Source: Georgenia sp. TF02-10
GTDB lineage: Bacteria; Actinomycetota; Actinomycetes; Actinomycetales; Actinomycetaceae
Assembly: GCF_022759505.1 (NCBI RefSeq)
Contig: NZ_CP094289.1
Coordinates: 3,782,001-3,846,000 of the forward strand
DNA: 64,000 nucleotides
Direction: 5' to 3'
Shown here piece after piece: positions 45,003-51,950 of this stretch (its first letter is position 1; each line of letters begins with the position of its first letter). Made by a program: the position numbers and the translations under genes. Below the pieces are notes generated by a model. The model saw nothing but the letters and a program-made list of their open reading frames with translations, ran no database searches and had not been told where the DNA came from.

Positions 45003-45232
45003 TCCCTCTCGTCGTCGTTTTTCCGCCAGGCCAGACTCGCCTGGAGGACCAGGTTTGAGTCTCTCGCCGCCAGGACCGGGCAGCACGCCGGCGCGCTGCC
45101 CGCGCCGCGCCGTCAGGACGACGCATCTCCGCGCTCGCGCTCTGCTCGCACCGTTCCGCAAAGCTGCAGGAGCCGAGTGGGCAGCTCAGCTGGAGCCCGC
45201 ATACCGCGACCGGCCTGCGTACCTTGTATGAC

Positions 45233-45454
45233 ATGGTTCGGCTGACCATCGACCTACCAGACGAGCTCGCCGCCCGAGCGAAGGAGGCGGGCCTCGACCT
45301 GTCGGCCGTCACGCGCGAGGCGGTCCGGCGGAGCCTGGCAGCGCAGTCGACCGGCGCCTGGTTGTCGACTCTCCCATCAGCACCCGCGCAGCCGGTGAGC
45401 CACAAACGGGCACTCGCGGCGCTCGACGCCGTGCGCAACGAGGCCGCCGGGTGA
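45233..45454 (+). CDS. CcdA-like/ribbon-helix-helix antitoxin
   Basis: A 73-residue protein with a ribbon-helix-helix-type DNA-binding N-terminus (MVRLTIDLPDELAARAKEAG, LDLSAVTREAVRRSLA) and a C-terminal toxin-binding tail (SHKRALAALDAVRNEAAG). This matches CcdA-family type II antitoxins. ATG 45233 is taken as start. The stop overlaps a GTG that begins a degenerate PIN-like frame, the arrangement of an antitoxin-toxin operon whose toxin has decayed. Confidence 0.78.
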   Translation: MVRLTIDLPDELAARAKEAGLDLSAVTREAVRRSLAAQSTGAWLSTLPSAPAQPVSHKRALAALDAVRNEAAG

Positions 45455-45557
45455 CAGCTGACCCGTCGTCGACGCCTCGACGTTGATCGACTGCTCGACG
45501 CCATCCACGCCCGCCAGAGCAGCGATGACGAGGTACCCCGCTGGCGTTCAGGGCTGA
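45451..45557 (+). pseudogene. Remnant of a PIN-domain toxin
   Basis: Behind the antitoxin, GTG 45451 overlaps its stop but hits TGA after 11 codons. One frame over, VVDASTLIDC (from 45465) is the typical first strand of PIN ribonucleases with its catalytic Asp. The reading then runs into unrelated residues and stops at 45557. A single missing base would join VTADP to VVDASTLID. Only about 30 residues survive. This reading is inference from a short match. Confidence 0.45.
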
Positions 45558-45621
45558 GTGCCGTGGGGAAGGGTTTAGTCTCCGAACCAGCCACGTCACG
45601 CCCCAGATGAGGTAGTCGCCA

Positions 45622-48600
45622 ATGCTGACCAGCACCACTTCCCCGCCGAGCCGGAGACGGAGGCGGGAGGCGTCGTCGTCGACGCTGGAGGGCCTGCTCG
45701 ACAAGTTCCTCCGCGAGTCCACCAGCCTGCGCGACCAAGGGGACAGGTTCGAGCGCCTCGTCCGCTCCTTCCTGCTCACCGACTACCAGTGGGCGGGCCG
45801 GTTCGACGAGGTGTGGATGTGGCAGGACTGGCCGGGCCGCGACCACCGACCGGACACCGGCATCGACCTCGTCGCCCGGGAGCGGGACACCGGCGACCTG
45901 GTCGCCGTCCAGTGCAAGTTCTACGACCCCCAGGCCGTGCTCCAGAAGCAGGACATCGACTCGTTCCTGTCCGAGTCGGGCAAGGAGCCGTTCCGGCAGC
46001 GGCTGATCGTCACCACCACACTGCGCTGGGGACGGCACGCCGAGGAGGCGATCCACGGCCAACAGATCCCGGTCCAGCGGCTCGACCTGACGGACCTCCT
46101 TGACTCCTCGATCGACTGGTCCCAGTTCGACTTCGCCAAGCCGGAGGACCTCGAGCTCAAGGAGCGCAAGGAGCTCCGCACGCACCAGCGCGACGCACTC
46201 GAGGCGGTCCGCGCCGGTCTCCAGGAGCACGACCGCGGCAAGCTCATCATGGCGTGCGGGACGGGCAAGACCTTCACCTCGCTGCGGATCGCCGAAGAGC
46301 TCGTGCCGCTCGGCGGGTCCGTGCTCTTCCTCGTCCCGTCCATCGCGCTGCTGTCGCAATCGCTCAGGGAGTGGTCGCTCGAGGCGGTCGAGGGCCTGCG
46401 CACGTTCGCCGTGTGCTCCGACGTCAAGGTCGGGAAGAAGTCCGACGCCGAGGACATCTCGGTCGTCGACCTAGCCATCCCCGCCACGACGAACCCGGCG
46501 ACCCTGCACGCCAGGATGGCCGACCGCAGCCCGGCGGAGGGCCGCATCACCGTCGTGTTCTCCACCTACCAGTCGATCGACGTCGTCGCCCAGGCACAGG
46601 CGATGGGCCTGCCGGACTTCGACCTGGTGGTCTGCGACGAGGCGCACCGCACGACCGGCGCCACCCTCGCCGGGGCCGAGGAGTCGGCGTGGACCCGGGT
46701 GCACAACCCGGAGTACATCCGGGCCGGCAAGCGCCTCTACATGACGGCCACCCCCCGGATCTACGACGACGCCTCCAAGGCGAAGGCCGGCCAGGCGAAC
46801 GCCGTGCTCGCGTCGATGGACGACGAGGCGCTCTTCGGTCCTGAGCTGCACCGCCTCGGCTTTGGCGAGGCGGTCGGCAGGGACCTGCTGTCGGACTACA
46901 AGGTGCTCGTGCTCGCCGTGGACGAGGGGTACGTCAGCCGCACCTTCCAGGAGGCCTTCACCGACCCGGACAACTCCGAGCTGGGGCTGGACGACGTCGC
47001 CAAGATCGTCGGCTGCTGGAACGGCCTGGCGAAGCGCGGCAGTACCGAGCACGACTTCGCCACCGACCCCGAACCGATGCGCCGCGCCGTCGCGTTCTCC
47101 CGCTCGATCAAGGACTCGAAGTCGTTCGCGGAGCGGTTCGAGGCGATCGTCGCCGAGGTCATGATTAGGTCCGGCCTGCAGGAGGACGACCCGTCGGTGC
47201 TGCCGGCCACCGCGCAGCACGTCGATGGCACCTACAATGTCCTCCAGCGCAACGAACGTCTCGCGTGGCTCGAGGCGGAGACGCCGGAGCCCGAGTGCCG
47301 CGTCCTGTCGAACGCGAAGTGCCTCTCCGAGGGCGTGGACGTGCCAGCGCTCGACGCCGTTCTATTCCTCAACCCGCGCAAGTCGATCGTGGACGTCGTC
47401 CAGTCCGTCGGCCGGGTGATGCGCAAGGCGCCGGGCAAGAAGTACGGCTACATCATCCTGCCGATCGGGATCCCGGCCGGGACGACGCCGGAAGATGCGT
47501 TGCGCGACAACGAGAAGTACCGCGTCGTGTGGGAGGTGCTCCAGGCGCTCCGGGCGCACGACGAACGCTTCGACGCGATGGTCAACAAGATCGAGCTGAA
47601 CTCCCGCCGTGACGACCGCATCCAGATCATCGGTGTCGGCGGCGGCCCGGAGGGTGACGAGTACGGGGACGGCGCAGGGAGGGCGGACGACGGCGGCACG
47701 CAGGCGGCCTTCGATCTCGCCTCCCTCGGGGAGTGGCGCGACGCGATCTACGCCAAGATCGTGCAGAAGGTCGGCTCGCGCCGGTACTGGGAGCAGTGGG
47801 CGCAGGACGTCGCCGACATTGCCGAGAAGCACCGCCTCCGGCTGCTCGCGCTGATCGACCAGGGGCACGCCGCCGAGGAGTTCGAGGCCTTCCTCACCGC
47901 GCTGCGGGCGAACCTCAACCCGTCGATCAGCCGCAACGACGCCATCGACATGCTCTCGCAGCACCTCATCACCGCGCCGATCTTCGAGGCGCTGTTCGCC
48001 GGCTACGACTTCACCACCCACAACCCCGTGTCCCAGGTGATGCAGGGCATGCTCGAGGCACTGGAGGGCAGCAACCTCGAGGCCGAGGTCGAGCCGCTCG
48101 AGAAGTTCTACGCCTCCGTGCGCCAGCGCGCGGCCGGGCTCGACAACGCCGAGGCCCGCCAGAAGGTCGTCACCGAGCTGTACGAGAAGTTCTTCCGGTT
48201 CGCCTTCCCGCGCGTCGCCGATTCTCTCGGTATCGTGTACACGCCGGTCGAGATCGTGGACTTCATCCTGCGCTCGGTCGACCACCTCCTGCGCACGGAG
48301 TTCGGCACGTCGATCAGCGCCGAGGGCGTCCACGTGCTCGACCCGTTCACCGGCACCGGCACGTTCCTCGTGCGGCTGCTGCAGTCCGGGCTCATTCAGC
48401 CGCACGACCTGGCCCGCAAGTACGCCTCCGAGCTGCACGCGAACGAGATCATGCTCCTCGCGTACTACATCGCGGCGATCAACATCGAGTCCACCTACCA
48501 CCAGCTCATGAGCGACCGCGACAACTCCATGCGTTCGCAGACCTCCGACGGCGTTCCCTCCACCGATCAGGAGTATGTCCCGTTCGACGGTATCGTGCTG

Positions 48601-50550
48601 ACGGACACGTTCCAGATGACGGAGAAGGACGACCTCGACGACCTCGAGGTCTTCACGAGCAACAACGCCCGCGTGGACGCCCAGCGGCGGCTCGACATCC
48701 GGGTGATCGTCGGGAACCCGCCGTACTCCGTCGGTCAGACGAGCGGCAACGACAACAACCAGAACGTCAAGTACCCGACGCTGGATGCCGTGATCGAGCG
48801 GACGTACGCCGCGCGGTCGACTTCCGCCCTCAAGAAGTCGCTGTACGACTCCTACGTCCGGGCGATCCGCTGGGCCTCTGATCGGATCGGCGACCAGGGT
48901 GTCATCGGGTTCGTCACCAACGGTGGCTTCATCGACGCGAACACCGCCGACGGGCTCCGCAAGACGCTCGCCGACGAGTTCGCCACGATCTACGTGTACA
49001 ACCTCCGGGGCAACCAGCGGACCGCCGGTGAGCAGGCACGCAAAGAGGGCGGCAAGATCTTCGGGTCCGGCTCCCGGAACACCGTCGCCGTGACCTTCCT
49101 CGTCAAGCACCCCAGCCGGACCGGTCGCGCGACCCTTCGCTACCGCGACATCGGCGACTACCTGTCGCGCGAGCAGAAGCTCGCCATCGTCGACGGCAGC
49201 ACAGTCGACTCCATCGAGTGGACCAACGTCGCGCCGAACGACGCCGGGGACTGGACCAACCAGCGATCCGAGGGGTTCGACTCACACCAACCCATCGGTA
49301 GTCGCGACGGCAACGGCACCGTCTTCGCCGTCTCGACGCGCGGACTCATCACGGCACGAGACGCATGGGTCTACAACTTCTCGCCCGCCGAGCTCACTCG
49401 GAACGTCGAACGCATGATCCGGTTCTACAACGGTCAGGTCGACGAGTTCGCCGACCTCGTCGCAAAGCGAAGCCTACGCGACACCCGGTCGTACGTGAAC
49501 GACTTCATTGACACCGATCCCAGGAAGTTCAGTTGGGATCACGCCGACCGTCAACGCCTCCCGCGGGGGCGGCACTATGAAATGCACCAGGAGGCACTTC
49601 GGATCGCTGCCTACCGACCCTTTACTAAGCAGGCAGCATGGTTTGACCGCGAGCTCAACAACAGGGTATACCAGTTGCCGTTGATGTTCCCAACTCCGCA
49701 GCACCCGAACCACGGGTTCACGGTTTCAGCGCCCGGTGCCAACGCGCAATTTACTTGCCTCGCTGTTGACAAGATTCCGGACCTCGTTTCCGTCGCAGGT
49801 GCCGGCAATCCCAGCCTGTTCTTCGCGCGCTACACCTACGAGAACATCGAAGAAGGCGAGCTCGACCTAATCGGCGGTGGCGACGTCGTCGCCGACTACC
49901 GCCGGATCGACAACATTACAGACGCCACCCTCACCACTTACCGCAACTGGTATGGTCCGCACGTGACGAAAGACGACGTCTTCGCCTTCGTCTACGGTCT
50001 GCTGCACTCGCCGGACTACCGGGAGCGTTTCGCCGCGGACCTCAAGCGGACGCTCCCCCGCATCCCGCGGATCCAGTCGGACGACTTCGCCGCGTTCCGC
50101 GACGCCGGCCAGGCGCTGCTGGACCTGCACATCGGCTACGAGTCGGTCGAGCCGTATCCGCTGACGATTGGCGGCAGCCAGCCCTCGGGTCCCGGCAGCG
50201 CAGATGTCTACGAGTGGTTCCGCGTGGAGAAGATGCGCTACGTCAAGCGCGGCCGCGAGACCGACCGCTCGACGATCTCCTACAACCCGCGCATTACCGT
50301 GTCGGGCGTCCCGGACGAGGCGCACCGGTACATGCTCGGATCGCGCAGCGCGGTCGACTGGATCCTCGACCGATACCAGGTCCGCACGGACAAGGCGTCG
50401 GGGATCGTCAACGACCCGAACGACTGGTCGCGCGAGGTCGGCAACCCGCGCTACATCCTCGACCTCCTCGCCCGCGTGGTCACGGTGAGCGTGGAGACGA
50501 TGCGCCTCGTGGACGCGCTGCCGCCCCTGCGAATCGTGGAGCAGGCGTGA
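45622..50550 (+). CDS. Type ISP-like single-chain restriction-modification enzyme
   Basis: A 1642-residue protein uniting all restriction functions. In order: an Mrr-like PD-(D/E)xK nuclease (TGIDLVARE near 80, VAVQCKFYD near 97), an SF2 helicase/translocase (Walker A ACGTGKTF near 212, DEAH in VCDEAHRTT near 338, motif VI QSVGRVMRK near 594), a helical coupler, a gamma-class N6-adenine methyltransferase (DPFTGTGTF near 907 and NPPYSVGQ near 1032) and a C-terminal target recognition domain. This order and length match Type ISP enzymes such as LlaBIII and LlaGI. They methylate one strand of an asymmetric site and cut after head-to-head translocation. No separate M or S gene is needed. The IS630 element lies 178 bases downstream. 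Confidence 0.93.
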   Translation: MLTSTTSPPSRRRRREASSSTLEGLLDKFLRESTSLRDQGDRFERLVRSFLLTDYQWAGRFDEVWMWQDWPGRDHRPDTGIDLVARERDTGDLVAVQCKFYDPQAVLQKQDIDSFLSESGKEPFRQRLIVTTTLRWGRHAEEAIHGQQIPVQRLDLTDLLDSSIDWSQFDFAKPEDLELKERKELRTHQRDALEAVRAGLQEHDRGKLIMACGTGKTFTSLRIAEELVPLGGSVLFLVPSIALLSQSLREWSLEAVEGLRTFAVCSDVKVGKKSDAEDISVVDLAIPATTNPATLHARMADRSPAEGRITVVFSTYQSIDVVAQAQAMGLPDFDLVVCDEAHRTTGATLAGAEESAWTRVHNPEYIRAGKRLYMTATPRIYDDASKAKAGQANAVLASMDDEALFGPELHRLGFGEAVGRDLLSDYKVLVLAVDEGYVSRTFQEAFTDPDNSELGLDDVAKIVGCWNGLAKRGSTEHDFATDPEPMRRAVAFSRSIKDSKSFAERFEAIVAEVMIRSGLQEDDPSVLPATAQHVDGTYNVLQRNERLAWLEAETPEPECRVLSNAKCLSEGVDVPALDAVLFLNPRKSIVDVVQSVGRVMRKAPGKKYGYIILPIGIPAGTTPEDALRDNEKYRVVWEVLQALRAHDERFDAMVNKIELNSRRDDRIQIIGVGGGPEGDEYGDGAGRADDGGTQAAFDLASLGEWRDAIYAKIVQKVGSRRYWEQWAQDVADIAEKHRLRLLALIDQGHAAEEFEAFLTALRANLNPSISRNDAIDMLSQHLITAPIFEALFAGYDFTTHNPVSQVMQGMLEALEGSNLEAEVEPLEKFYASVRQRAAGLDNAEARQKVVTELYEKFFRFAFPRVADSLGIVYTPVEIVDFILRSVDHLLRTEFGTSISAEGVHVLDPFTGTGTFLVRLLQSGLIQPHDLARKYASELHANEIMLLAYYIAAINIESTYHQLMSDRDNSMRSQTSDGVPSTDQEYVPFDGIVLTDTFQMTEKDDLDDLEVFTSNNARVDAQRRLDIRVIVGNPPYSVGQTSGNDNNQNVKYPTLDAVIERTYAARSTSALKKSLYDSYVRAIRWASDRIGDQGVIGFVTNGGFIDANTADGLRKTLADEFATIYVYNLRGNQRTAGEQARKEGGKIFGSGSRNTVAVTFLVKHPSRTGRATLRYRDIGDYLSREQKLAIVDGSTVDSIEWTNVAPNDAGDWTNQRSEGFDSHQPIGSRDGNGTVFAVSTRGLITARDAWVYNFSPAELTRNVERMIRFYNGQVDEFADLVAKRSLRDTRSYVNDFIDTDPRKFSWDHADRQRLPRGRHYEMHQEALRIAAYRPFTKQAAWFDRELNNRVYQLPLMFPTPQHPNHGFTVSAPGANAQFTCLAVDKIPDLVSVAGAGNPSLFFARYTYENIEEGELDLIGGGDVVADYRRIDNITDATLTTYRNWYGPHVTKDDVFAFVYGLLHSPDYRERFAADLKRTLPRIPRIQSDDFAAFRDAGQALLDLHIGYESVEPYPLTIGGSQPSGPGSADVYEWFRVEKMRYVKRGRETDRSTISYNPRITVSGVPDEAHRYMLGSRSAVDWILDRYQVRTDKASGIVNDPNDWSREVGNPRYILDLLARVVTVSVETMRLVDALPPLRIVEQA

Positions 50551-50729
50551 ACGGGGCGACCGGTCACGGGCGGAGATGGGACTTGGTCCAGCAGGAATGC
50601 CGCGCCTTGCCCAACTCGTCCTCCGCCGGGCTGGAACCTCGTCGGTCGTCGCGTCCGGTCATTCGGAAGCCGTCACGGGGCGGGGGGAATCCTGGGCGCT
50701 GGTTGTGGGCATCGCGCTCGTGGCGCATA

Positions 50730-50759
50730 CTAAGGCGGTCGTAAGTAGGTCGACTCCGG
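50730..50759 (+). repeat. IS630 left inverted repeat
   Basis: The sequence CTAAGG-x4-CGTAAGTA-x-GTCGACTCCGG matches the right end in reverse complement with five mismatches over 30 bases. Confidence 0.9.
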
Positions 50760-50784
50760 CGGCCTTTTCTGCCATAATGGTTCT

Positions 50785-51825
50785 ATGCGCGACAACGACG
50801 GCCGGAAGCTGGACCACGCCACCTTGGAGCAGATGCGGTTCCGCGCGGTGGACGCGGTAGAGGCCGGGGCCCACCCGGAAGATGTCGCGAAGATGCTGGG
50901 GATGCACGCGAAAACGGTGTACGGGTGGTTGGCCAGAGCGCGTGAGGGTGGCCGGGATGCGTTGAAGGCCAAACCGGTCCCGGGTCGGCCACCAAAGCTG
51001 GACGGAAGCCAGCTGCGCCGGCTTTACACACTGATCGTCGGGACCAACCCGCGCCAGCTCCAGTTCGACTTCGAGCTGTGGACCCGGGCGATGGTGCGTG
51101 AGGTGATCCGGCGCGAGTTCGGGGTGCACCTGTCGGAGGTGTCCGTGGGCCGGTTGCTCAGGAAGCTCGGCCTGTCGCCCCAGCGCCCGCTGTGGCGGGC
51201 CTGGCAGGCCGACCCCGAGGCGGTGGAGCGGTGGAAGGCGGAGGAGTTCCCCGCGATCCGGGCGGCGGCCAAGGCCGAGGGCGCGACGGTGTACTTCGCG
51301 GACGAGGCCGGCATCCGCTCGGACTACCACGCCGGGACCACCTGGGCCCCGGTCGGGCGCACCCCGGTGGTCAAGGCCACCGGGGCCCGGCACTCCCTGA
51401 ACATGATCTCCGCGCTCACCCCCGCCGGAAAGCTGCGGTTCGCCACCTACACCGGCTCCTTCACCGCCGACCAGTTCATCAGCTTCTGCAAGAAGCTGCT
51501 CGCCGACACCGGCCGCGACGGCGGCGGCGGGGTGTACCTGGTCGTCGACGGTCACTCCACCCACAAGGCCAAGAAGGTCAAGGAGTTCATCGCCTCCACC
51601 GACGGCCGGCTGAAGGTGTTCATCCTGCCCGCCTACTCACCACAGCTCAACCCCGACGAGTGGGTCTGGAAGAACGTCAAGCACGACCGCGTCGGGCGCA
51701 CCGCCCCACGCACCGCCGAGGAGTTCAAGAGCAACGTCATCGCCGCGCTCCACCGCCTCCAGAAACTACCGCACCTGGTACGCGGGTTCTTCGCCGATCC
51801 AGATCTCCGCTACATCACCGCATAA
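50785..51825 (+). CDS. IS630 family transposase
   Basis: A 346-residue DDE transposase. Two N-terminal helix-turn-helix units (EDVAKMLGMHAKTVYGWLAR; EVIRREFGVHLSEVSVGRLL) precede the catalytic core: first Asp in YFADEAGIR (about residue 173), second in LVVDGHSTHKAKK (about 255) and the acid in YSPQLNPDEWVWKNVK (about 292). All three residues are present and the frame is intact, so the element may still be active. ATG 50785 lies 26 bases inside the left repeat. Confidence 0.95.
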   Translation: MRDNDGRKLDHATLEQMRFRAVDAVEAGAHPEDVAKMLGMHAKTVYGWLARAREGGRDALKAKPVPGRPPKLDGSQLRRLYTLIVGTNPRQLQFDFELWTRAMVREVIRREFGVHLSEVSVGRLLRKLGLSPQRPLWRAWQADPEAVERWKAEEFPAIRAAAKAEGATVYFADEAGIRSDYHAGTTWAPVGRTPVVKATGARHSLNMISALTPAGKLRFATYTGSFTADQFISFCKKLLADTGRDGGGGVYLVVDGHSTHKAKKVKEFIASTDGRLKVFILPAYSPQLNPDEWVWKNVKHDRVGRTAPRTAEEFKSNVIAALHRLQKLPHLVRGFFADPDLRYITA

Positions 51826-51829
51826 CGGA

Positions 51830-51859
51830 CCGGAGTCGACTTACTTACGTTCTCCTTAG
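51830..51859 (-). repeat. IS630 right inverted repeat
   Basis: CCGGAGTCGACTTACTTACG followed by TTCTCCTTAG, the complement of the left end. Confidence 0.9.
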
Positions 51860-51950
51860 TACGAGACCGGGGCCATGAGCCACCACGAGCCTCCGCGCTC
51901 GTGTCAGGCAGGCGCATATCGCCCCGCCCGCAGGTGCAGATCGCCCCACC

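Follow-up and report, generated by a model that had tools for sequence, protein, structure and literature searches.

A predicted complete Type ISP restriction-modification enzyme in Georgenia sp. TF02-10 and a partial reading of its likely DNA target

Type ISP restriction-modification enzymes are defined as single chains in which an Mrr-like nuclease is followed by a DNA-translocase ATPase, a gamma-class methyltransferase and a C-terminal target recognition domain, and their nuclease typically carries a PD-QxK motif and not PD-ExK (PMC3874165). Solved structures exist for LlaBIII (PDB 4xqk) and LlaGI (PDB 5ffj), and 552 Type ISP sequences have been analysed (PMC4872093); the recognition code published there is partial, its authors having obtained no simple one. 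In this article we compare with these systems a gene of Georgenia sp. TF02-10, found in a window of 64,000 nucleotides (the whole stretch of DNA that was analysed), which very probably encodes a complete enzyme of the same type.

Domain order and catalytic residues

The open reading frame at 45622-50550 on the plus strand starts with ATG and runs through 1642 codons with no internal stop. In 25 of the 29 full-length relatives the alignment starts at residues 17-25 of the Georgenia protein, which makes the first approximately 18 residues an extension of low conservation; inspection of the DNA revealed no in-frame ATG, GTG or TTG between residues 1 and 20. The genome holds one copy of the gene, near 3.83 Mb of contig C1, and since this contig is at least 3.92 Mb long in an assembly of 4.09 Mb (4 contigs), the gene is chromosomal. 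The gene and its domains are the following.

45622..50550, plus strand: gene of the putative Type ISP restriction-modification enzyme, one chain of 1642 aa
45778..46143, plus strand: Mrr-family PD-QxK nuclease (residues 53-174; D78, D82, Q97, K99); Mrr_cat_2, E 6.9e-46
46168..47427, plus strand: SF2 helicase-like ATPase/translocase (about residues 183-602; GTGKT, DEAH, TATP, QSVGRVMR); ResIII, Helicase_C and LlaBIII alignment
47785..48153, plus strand: ISP coupler domain (residues 722-844); PF22240, E 7.4e-47
48163..49005, plus strand: gamma-class N6-adenine methyltransferase (about residues 848-1128; LDPFTGTGT, N1032-PPY); weak N6_Mtase/Eco57I, LlaGI/LlaBIII alignment
49321..50466, plus strand: target recognition domain at the C terminus, including core, jaw and guide (residues 1234-1615); Type_ISP_C, E 8.3e-92, LlaGI/LlaBIII recognition-loop alignment

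The order of the Pfam matches (Mrr_cat_2, ResIII, Helicase_C, ISP_coupler, N6_Mtase/Eco57I, Type_ISP_C) is that of the Type ISP definition, and the alignment with LlaBIII (4xqk_A) is collinear from residue 20 to 1639, with 1248.3 bits in the PDB search; LlaGI without its nuclease domain (5ffj_A) matches residues 173-1639 with 1245.8 bits. The ATPase is covered by ResIII (183-379, 3e-24) and Helicase_C (529-602, 2.5e-07), and the methyltransferase matches are weak: N6_Mtase at 848-1014 (4.6e-05) and Eco57I at 1011-1128 (4e-05, under the curated cut-off). PF22240, which places the coupler between the ATPase and the methyltransferase, and PF18135 are Pfam families named after Type ISP enzymes. 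The best PADLOC model, PDLC03597, scored 2197 bits over residues 19-1640, and the second-best (1414 bits) was also nearly full length.

The catalytic residues were located by alignment with LlaBIII and LlaGI, and their conservation was counted in an alignment of 30 full-length sequences, i.e. the Georgenia protein and 29 relatives. The nuclease residues D78 and D82, followed by Q97-C-K99 of the PD-QxK motif, are invariant in all 30 (D78, D82, Q97 and K99), as are K216 of GTGKT, D339, E340 and H342 of DEAH (339-342) and the motif VI arginines R598 and R601 in the ATPase, and F909, N1032 and Y1035 in the methyltransferase; residue 907 is Asp in 29/30. F1147 and the intercalating R1133 are also found in 30/30, and the second intercalating residue, R1152, is variable among the relatives (R, M or Q). 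R1133 and R1152 correspond to R1119 and R1138 of LlaGI. NPPY and SAM motifs are present, and the enzyme would methylate adenine at N6 in a single strand of an asymmetric site.

The initial annotation had described a single-chain, 1642-residue Type ISP enzyme with fused domains in the order of that class and with all catalytic motifs present, and had asked for a comparison with LlaBIII and LlaGI. This description is upheld: the length and the fusion by the open frame, the Pfam matches and the LlaBIII match, the order by the collinear alignment, the motifs by 13 positions invariant in 30/30 together with D907 in 29/30, and the comparison itself returned the two scores given above. The ordered domains, the LlaBIII, LlaGI and PADLOC matches and the invariant catalytic residues together point with high confidence to a complete Type ISP restriction-modification enzyme at 45622-50550.

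Two other readings were weighed. A Type IIL/IIG (MmeI-like) enzyme would likewise unite nuclease, methyltransferase and recognition domain in one chain, cutting at a fixed short distance with no ATP-driven translocation; this is the least probable reading and hardly deserves belief, even if the best PADLOC model is labelled 'Type IIG' and 7lo5_A, a 1029-residue single-chain adenine methyltransferase which we take to be the Type IIL enzyme DrdV, matches residues 753-1634 with 433 bits. Such an enzyme has no helicase-like motor between nuclease and methyltransferase, whereas here an intact SF2 ATPase of about 420 residues and the ISP coupler are found at that place, and LlaBIII aligns almost end to end. 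It is precisely the ATPase insertion by which Type ISP differs from Type IIL (PMC4872093).

Scarcely more probable is a solitary methyltransferase that still methylates and has lost restriction through inactivation of its nuclease or motor. Two deviations from LlaBIII could be cited for it: motif V has K566 in place of R564, whose replacement by alanine slowed the translocation of LlaBIII (PMC7049714), and the hairpin residues K389 and D390 of LlaBIII are G390 and Q391 here. Since Lys stands at the motif V position in 4/30 sequences, including the Georgenia protein, it is probably tolerated, and the side chains of the hairpin pair were found unimportant (PMC7049714). Furthermore, the invariance of the ten nuclease and ATPase residues and a frame free of stops and frameshifts argue against inactivation and for the complete Type ISP enzyme.

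That the Georgenia enzyme is active, how it translocates and cleaves, its part in phage defence and its target are inferred by analogy from the work on LlaBIII and LlaGI (PMC4872093, PMC7049714). Its methyltransferase and recognition domain would close around a short asymmetric site, flipping out its adenine, and host sites would be protected by N6-adenine methylation of one strand. An unmethylated site would switch on the ATPase via the coupler, upon which the enzyme would move along the DNA upstream of the site with no looping of the DNA (PMC3874165 describes loops, which a later paper revises). Two enzymes that had started from head-to-head sites would collide, and repeated nicking of both strands by their Mrr nucleases would finally break the DNA.

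Residues of target recognition

The catalytic N1018 of LlaGI, which aligns with N1032 of the Georgenia protein, served to calibrate the numbering, and 15/15 LlaGI and 10/10 LlaBIII residues checked against PMC4872093 landed on the letters stated there. At -1 the Georgenia enzyme retains the pair Q1132/K1145, equivalent to Q1118/K1131 of LlaGI (C:G at -1), which also occurs in 20/44 relatives. At +6, R1348 corresponds to R1319 of LlaBIII, a reader of C:G (LlaGI position 1327), and the alternative reader of LlaGI, R1286, is H1307 here. The two arginines were never seen together in the 44 other sequences (17 have only the first, 23 only the second and 4 neither), which fits alternative readers of +6 and supports the published code, with the reservation that the sequences share descent and kinship confounds the pattern, so that a Fisher p-value calculated for it is no real probability. 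At +5 the signs diverge: N1347 (LlaGI position 1326) points to T by the published prediction and Y1350, equivalent to the LlaBIII tyrosine that reads C:G, points to C, so this base should be T or C. The Georgenia protein has none of the residues correlated in PMC4872093 with A or G at +4, and its residues at the +3 and +4 positions agree with neither the LlaGI nor the LlaBIII readers.

By the published partial code the target is most likely 5'-CTNNN(T/C)C-3', i.e. 5'-G(A/G)NNNAG-3' on the other strand, where the methylated adenine most likely sits opposite the first T. Positions +3 and +4 are probably specified by the enzyme as well, though unreadable from the code. The combination V1389, I1243, A1245, L1070 and K1072 at these positions was found in 0/44 other sequences and in neither solved structure.

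The R and Y of the +5/+6 loop of LlaBIII are kept (R1348, Y1350), whereas its N1360, K1024, K1231, N1056, N1058 and D1318 are replaced by V, G, I, L, K and N. The -1 pair and both intercalating arginines of LlaGI are shared, and so is G1372, whereas H1368, Q1373, K1023, N1228, S1056, N1327, R1329 and R1286 are not conserved, thus the target probably differs from that of LlaGI at some of the positions +3 to +6. No relative among the 44 shares more than 6 of the 13 recognition positions, and the closest two (L102, L103) share 6/13. Judged from these residues, a target other than those of LlaGI and LlaBIII is likely; that it is an uncatalogued one, 5'-CTNNN(T/C)C-3', in which two inner positions have yet to be read, we hold to be somewhat short of an even chance, and if true it would extend the published partial code.

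The closest full-length relatives, from Demequina flava, Demequina sp. B12 and D. globuliformis (L023, L024, L027), are 65-67% identical over the full length, with 52-56% in the recognition core and jaw as against 64-77% in the other domains. Their recognition residues differ from those of the Georgenia enzyme, so they probably have other targets.

Genomic setting and mobility

Two further features adjoin the gene.

45224-45621, plus strand: CcdA/VapB-like antitoxin gene with no toxin, 5' of the Type ISP gene (20.5 bits, under the Pfam cut-off of 22.4)
50728-51861, plus strand: IS630-like insertion sequence, 3' of the Type ISP gene (DDE_3 transposase at 50785-51825)

Just downstream of the antitoxin-like gene an out-of-frame stretch resembles, by eye, the start of a PIN-type toxin, which makes a decayed toxin-antitoxin pair likely; an antitoxin-like relative, 34% identical, occurs at G000:C1:493328. 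The IS630-like element has 32-nt terminal inverted repeats that are 88% complementary. Its transposase is present in 8 copies in the genome, this one included, with 100% identical protein, and a broken copy lies in pieces near C1:2713100-2714130; the 8 identical copies indicate recent activity of the element. Both the insertion and the toxinless antitoxin gene look unrelated to the restriction mechanism. Carriage of the gene by a mobile element was considered and rejected, as the inverted repeats of the IS630-like copy delimit the insertion alone and leave the gene outside; the element is a multi-copy insertion. Direct repeats flanking the gene did not stand out among 20 of 34 repeat families listed.

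The G+C content of the gene is 66.8%, compared with 73.7-73.9% in the two flanking 10-kb stretches. This is compatible with horizontal acquisition and no proof of it, because the third-position G+C of the gene (0.92) lies inside the range of the five neighbouring genes measured (0.89-0.96). Within the gene, the region of the recognition core and jaw (49222-50061, plus strand) has a third-position G+C of 0.79 versus 0.94-0.98 in the other domains, possibly a trace of domain exchange. A closer donor of the recognition domain was found neither in 394 genomes of the class (best 50% identity, this gene aside) nor on plasmids (best 49.8%), these values being set against the 52-56% of Demequina, which come from another alignment. 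Since faster divergence explains the drop in G+C and identity equally well, we do not propose a swap of the recognition domain.

An empty site was sought by way of the two flanking genes in 39 genomes including this one, the only Georgenia in the sample, and was not found; the two genes gave matches in 7 and 4 genomes. Partner genes were surveyed by blastp in the window and in the flanks of 32 of 52 related loci, several of these flanks being short, and families present in at least three loci were kept; in this set no gene recurred in three actinobacterial loci. The recurring families were an integrase, Toprim and repeat-protein ORFs (mainly of Bartonella), a DUF3987 ORF and an ABC-transporter ATPase. 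An integrase is common to the flanks of L032, L035 and L059, and two resolvases to those of L023, L030 and L053, of which L023 and L030 are actinobacterial.

Distribution and related loci

Of 200 genomes of the same family, 29 carry the ISP_coupler domain (the Georgenia genome among them), spread over 14/36 genera. Frames of at least 1490 residues were found in 19/29 carriers and shorter ones in 10/29 (split, truncated or cut genes; that of genome G175 has two stops); 10/29 carriers are single-contig assemblies, 5 of them with frames of at least 1490 residues. Genes related over the full length were found in Demequina, Kocuria, Actinomyces, Tessaracoccus and Microbacterium, the best after Demequina being those of Actinomyces provencensis (60%) and a Bifidobacteriaceae bacterium (58%). 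Six exact peptide patterns matched 52 loci in genome_contigs, the weakest being ATPase-only matches to other proteins. Plasmids gave 573 matching records, of which 144 cover 80% or more of the query, most thus being partial; among the plasmid matches listed 12/30 are annotated as 'type ISP restriction/modification enzyme'. The best plasmid match (58.8%) is on the conjugative pTC1 of Paenarthrobacter aurescens TC1, where the gene is named 'putative Helicase'.

Type ISP enzymes are therefore common in actinobacteria, on chromosomes and plasmids alike. Among the mycobacterial ones, Mtu18II presumably corresponds to MamB. MamB (Rv2024c) methylates CACGCAG (PMC7591249). Mycobacterial members whose targets are known, among them Mtu18II and MboBCG21III, had been published by 2016, and Mtu18II and the mycobacterial enzymes identical to it are described, as is proposed for the Georgenia enzyme, as Type ISP enzymes of actinobacteria (PMC4872093). 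The initial annotation had argued that, the best-known examples being plasmid enzymes of lactococci, a chromosomal actinobacterial member would have a new recognition sequence. The premise that such a member is unusual is contradicted by the counts, by the chromosomal and plasmid relatives and by the 2016 mycobacterial enzymes; the argument from location is not supported, while a different target stays likely on account of the recognition residues. Only the exact DNA word recognised is probably the Georgenia enzyme's own. If the assignment is true, little changes, as another member would join a well-characterised, widespread anti-phage family; it would offer a new single-chain DNA specificity and a means of testing the partial recognition code of Type ISP enzymes, and it might form a transformation barrier in a Georgenia actinomycete.

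Bartonella sp. B1099 carries at least five Type ISP genes in one genome (L037, L039, L040, L041, L051). Homologues of a single phage-type integrase and of a single Toprim-domain ORF are found in the flanks of each (PF00589 and Toprim_3 were identified on L037), and the recognition residues differ among the four aligned genes, i.e. all but L039. The set has the look of an integrative element in several copies by which Type ISP enzymes with differing specificities are spread, and our literature search found no paper joining 'type ISP' and 'Bartonella'.

Viral carriage was considered and rejected: viral_contigs gave 0 matches with the six exact peptide patterns, which detect close relatives only, and 2/50,697 phage records matched. 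These are OR846882.1 and OR848216.1, unannotated 11-kb records labelled Listeria phage, each carrying a Type ISP-like gene of almost full length (40% identity).

Two Ornithinimicrobium loci (L055, L060) are 66-68% identical and match only to about residue 1035, where L060 stops. L055 is in three frames, and on its plasmid a match to the recognition domain lies about 16 kb away on the same strand (NZ_CP091057.1 27664-28475), as if the gene had been interrupted.
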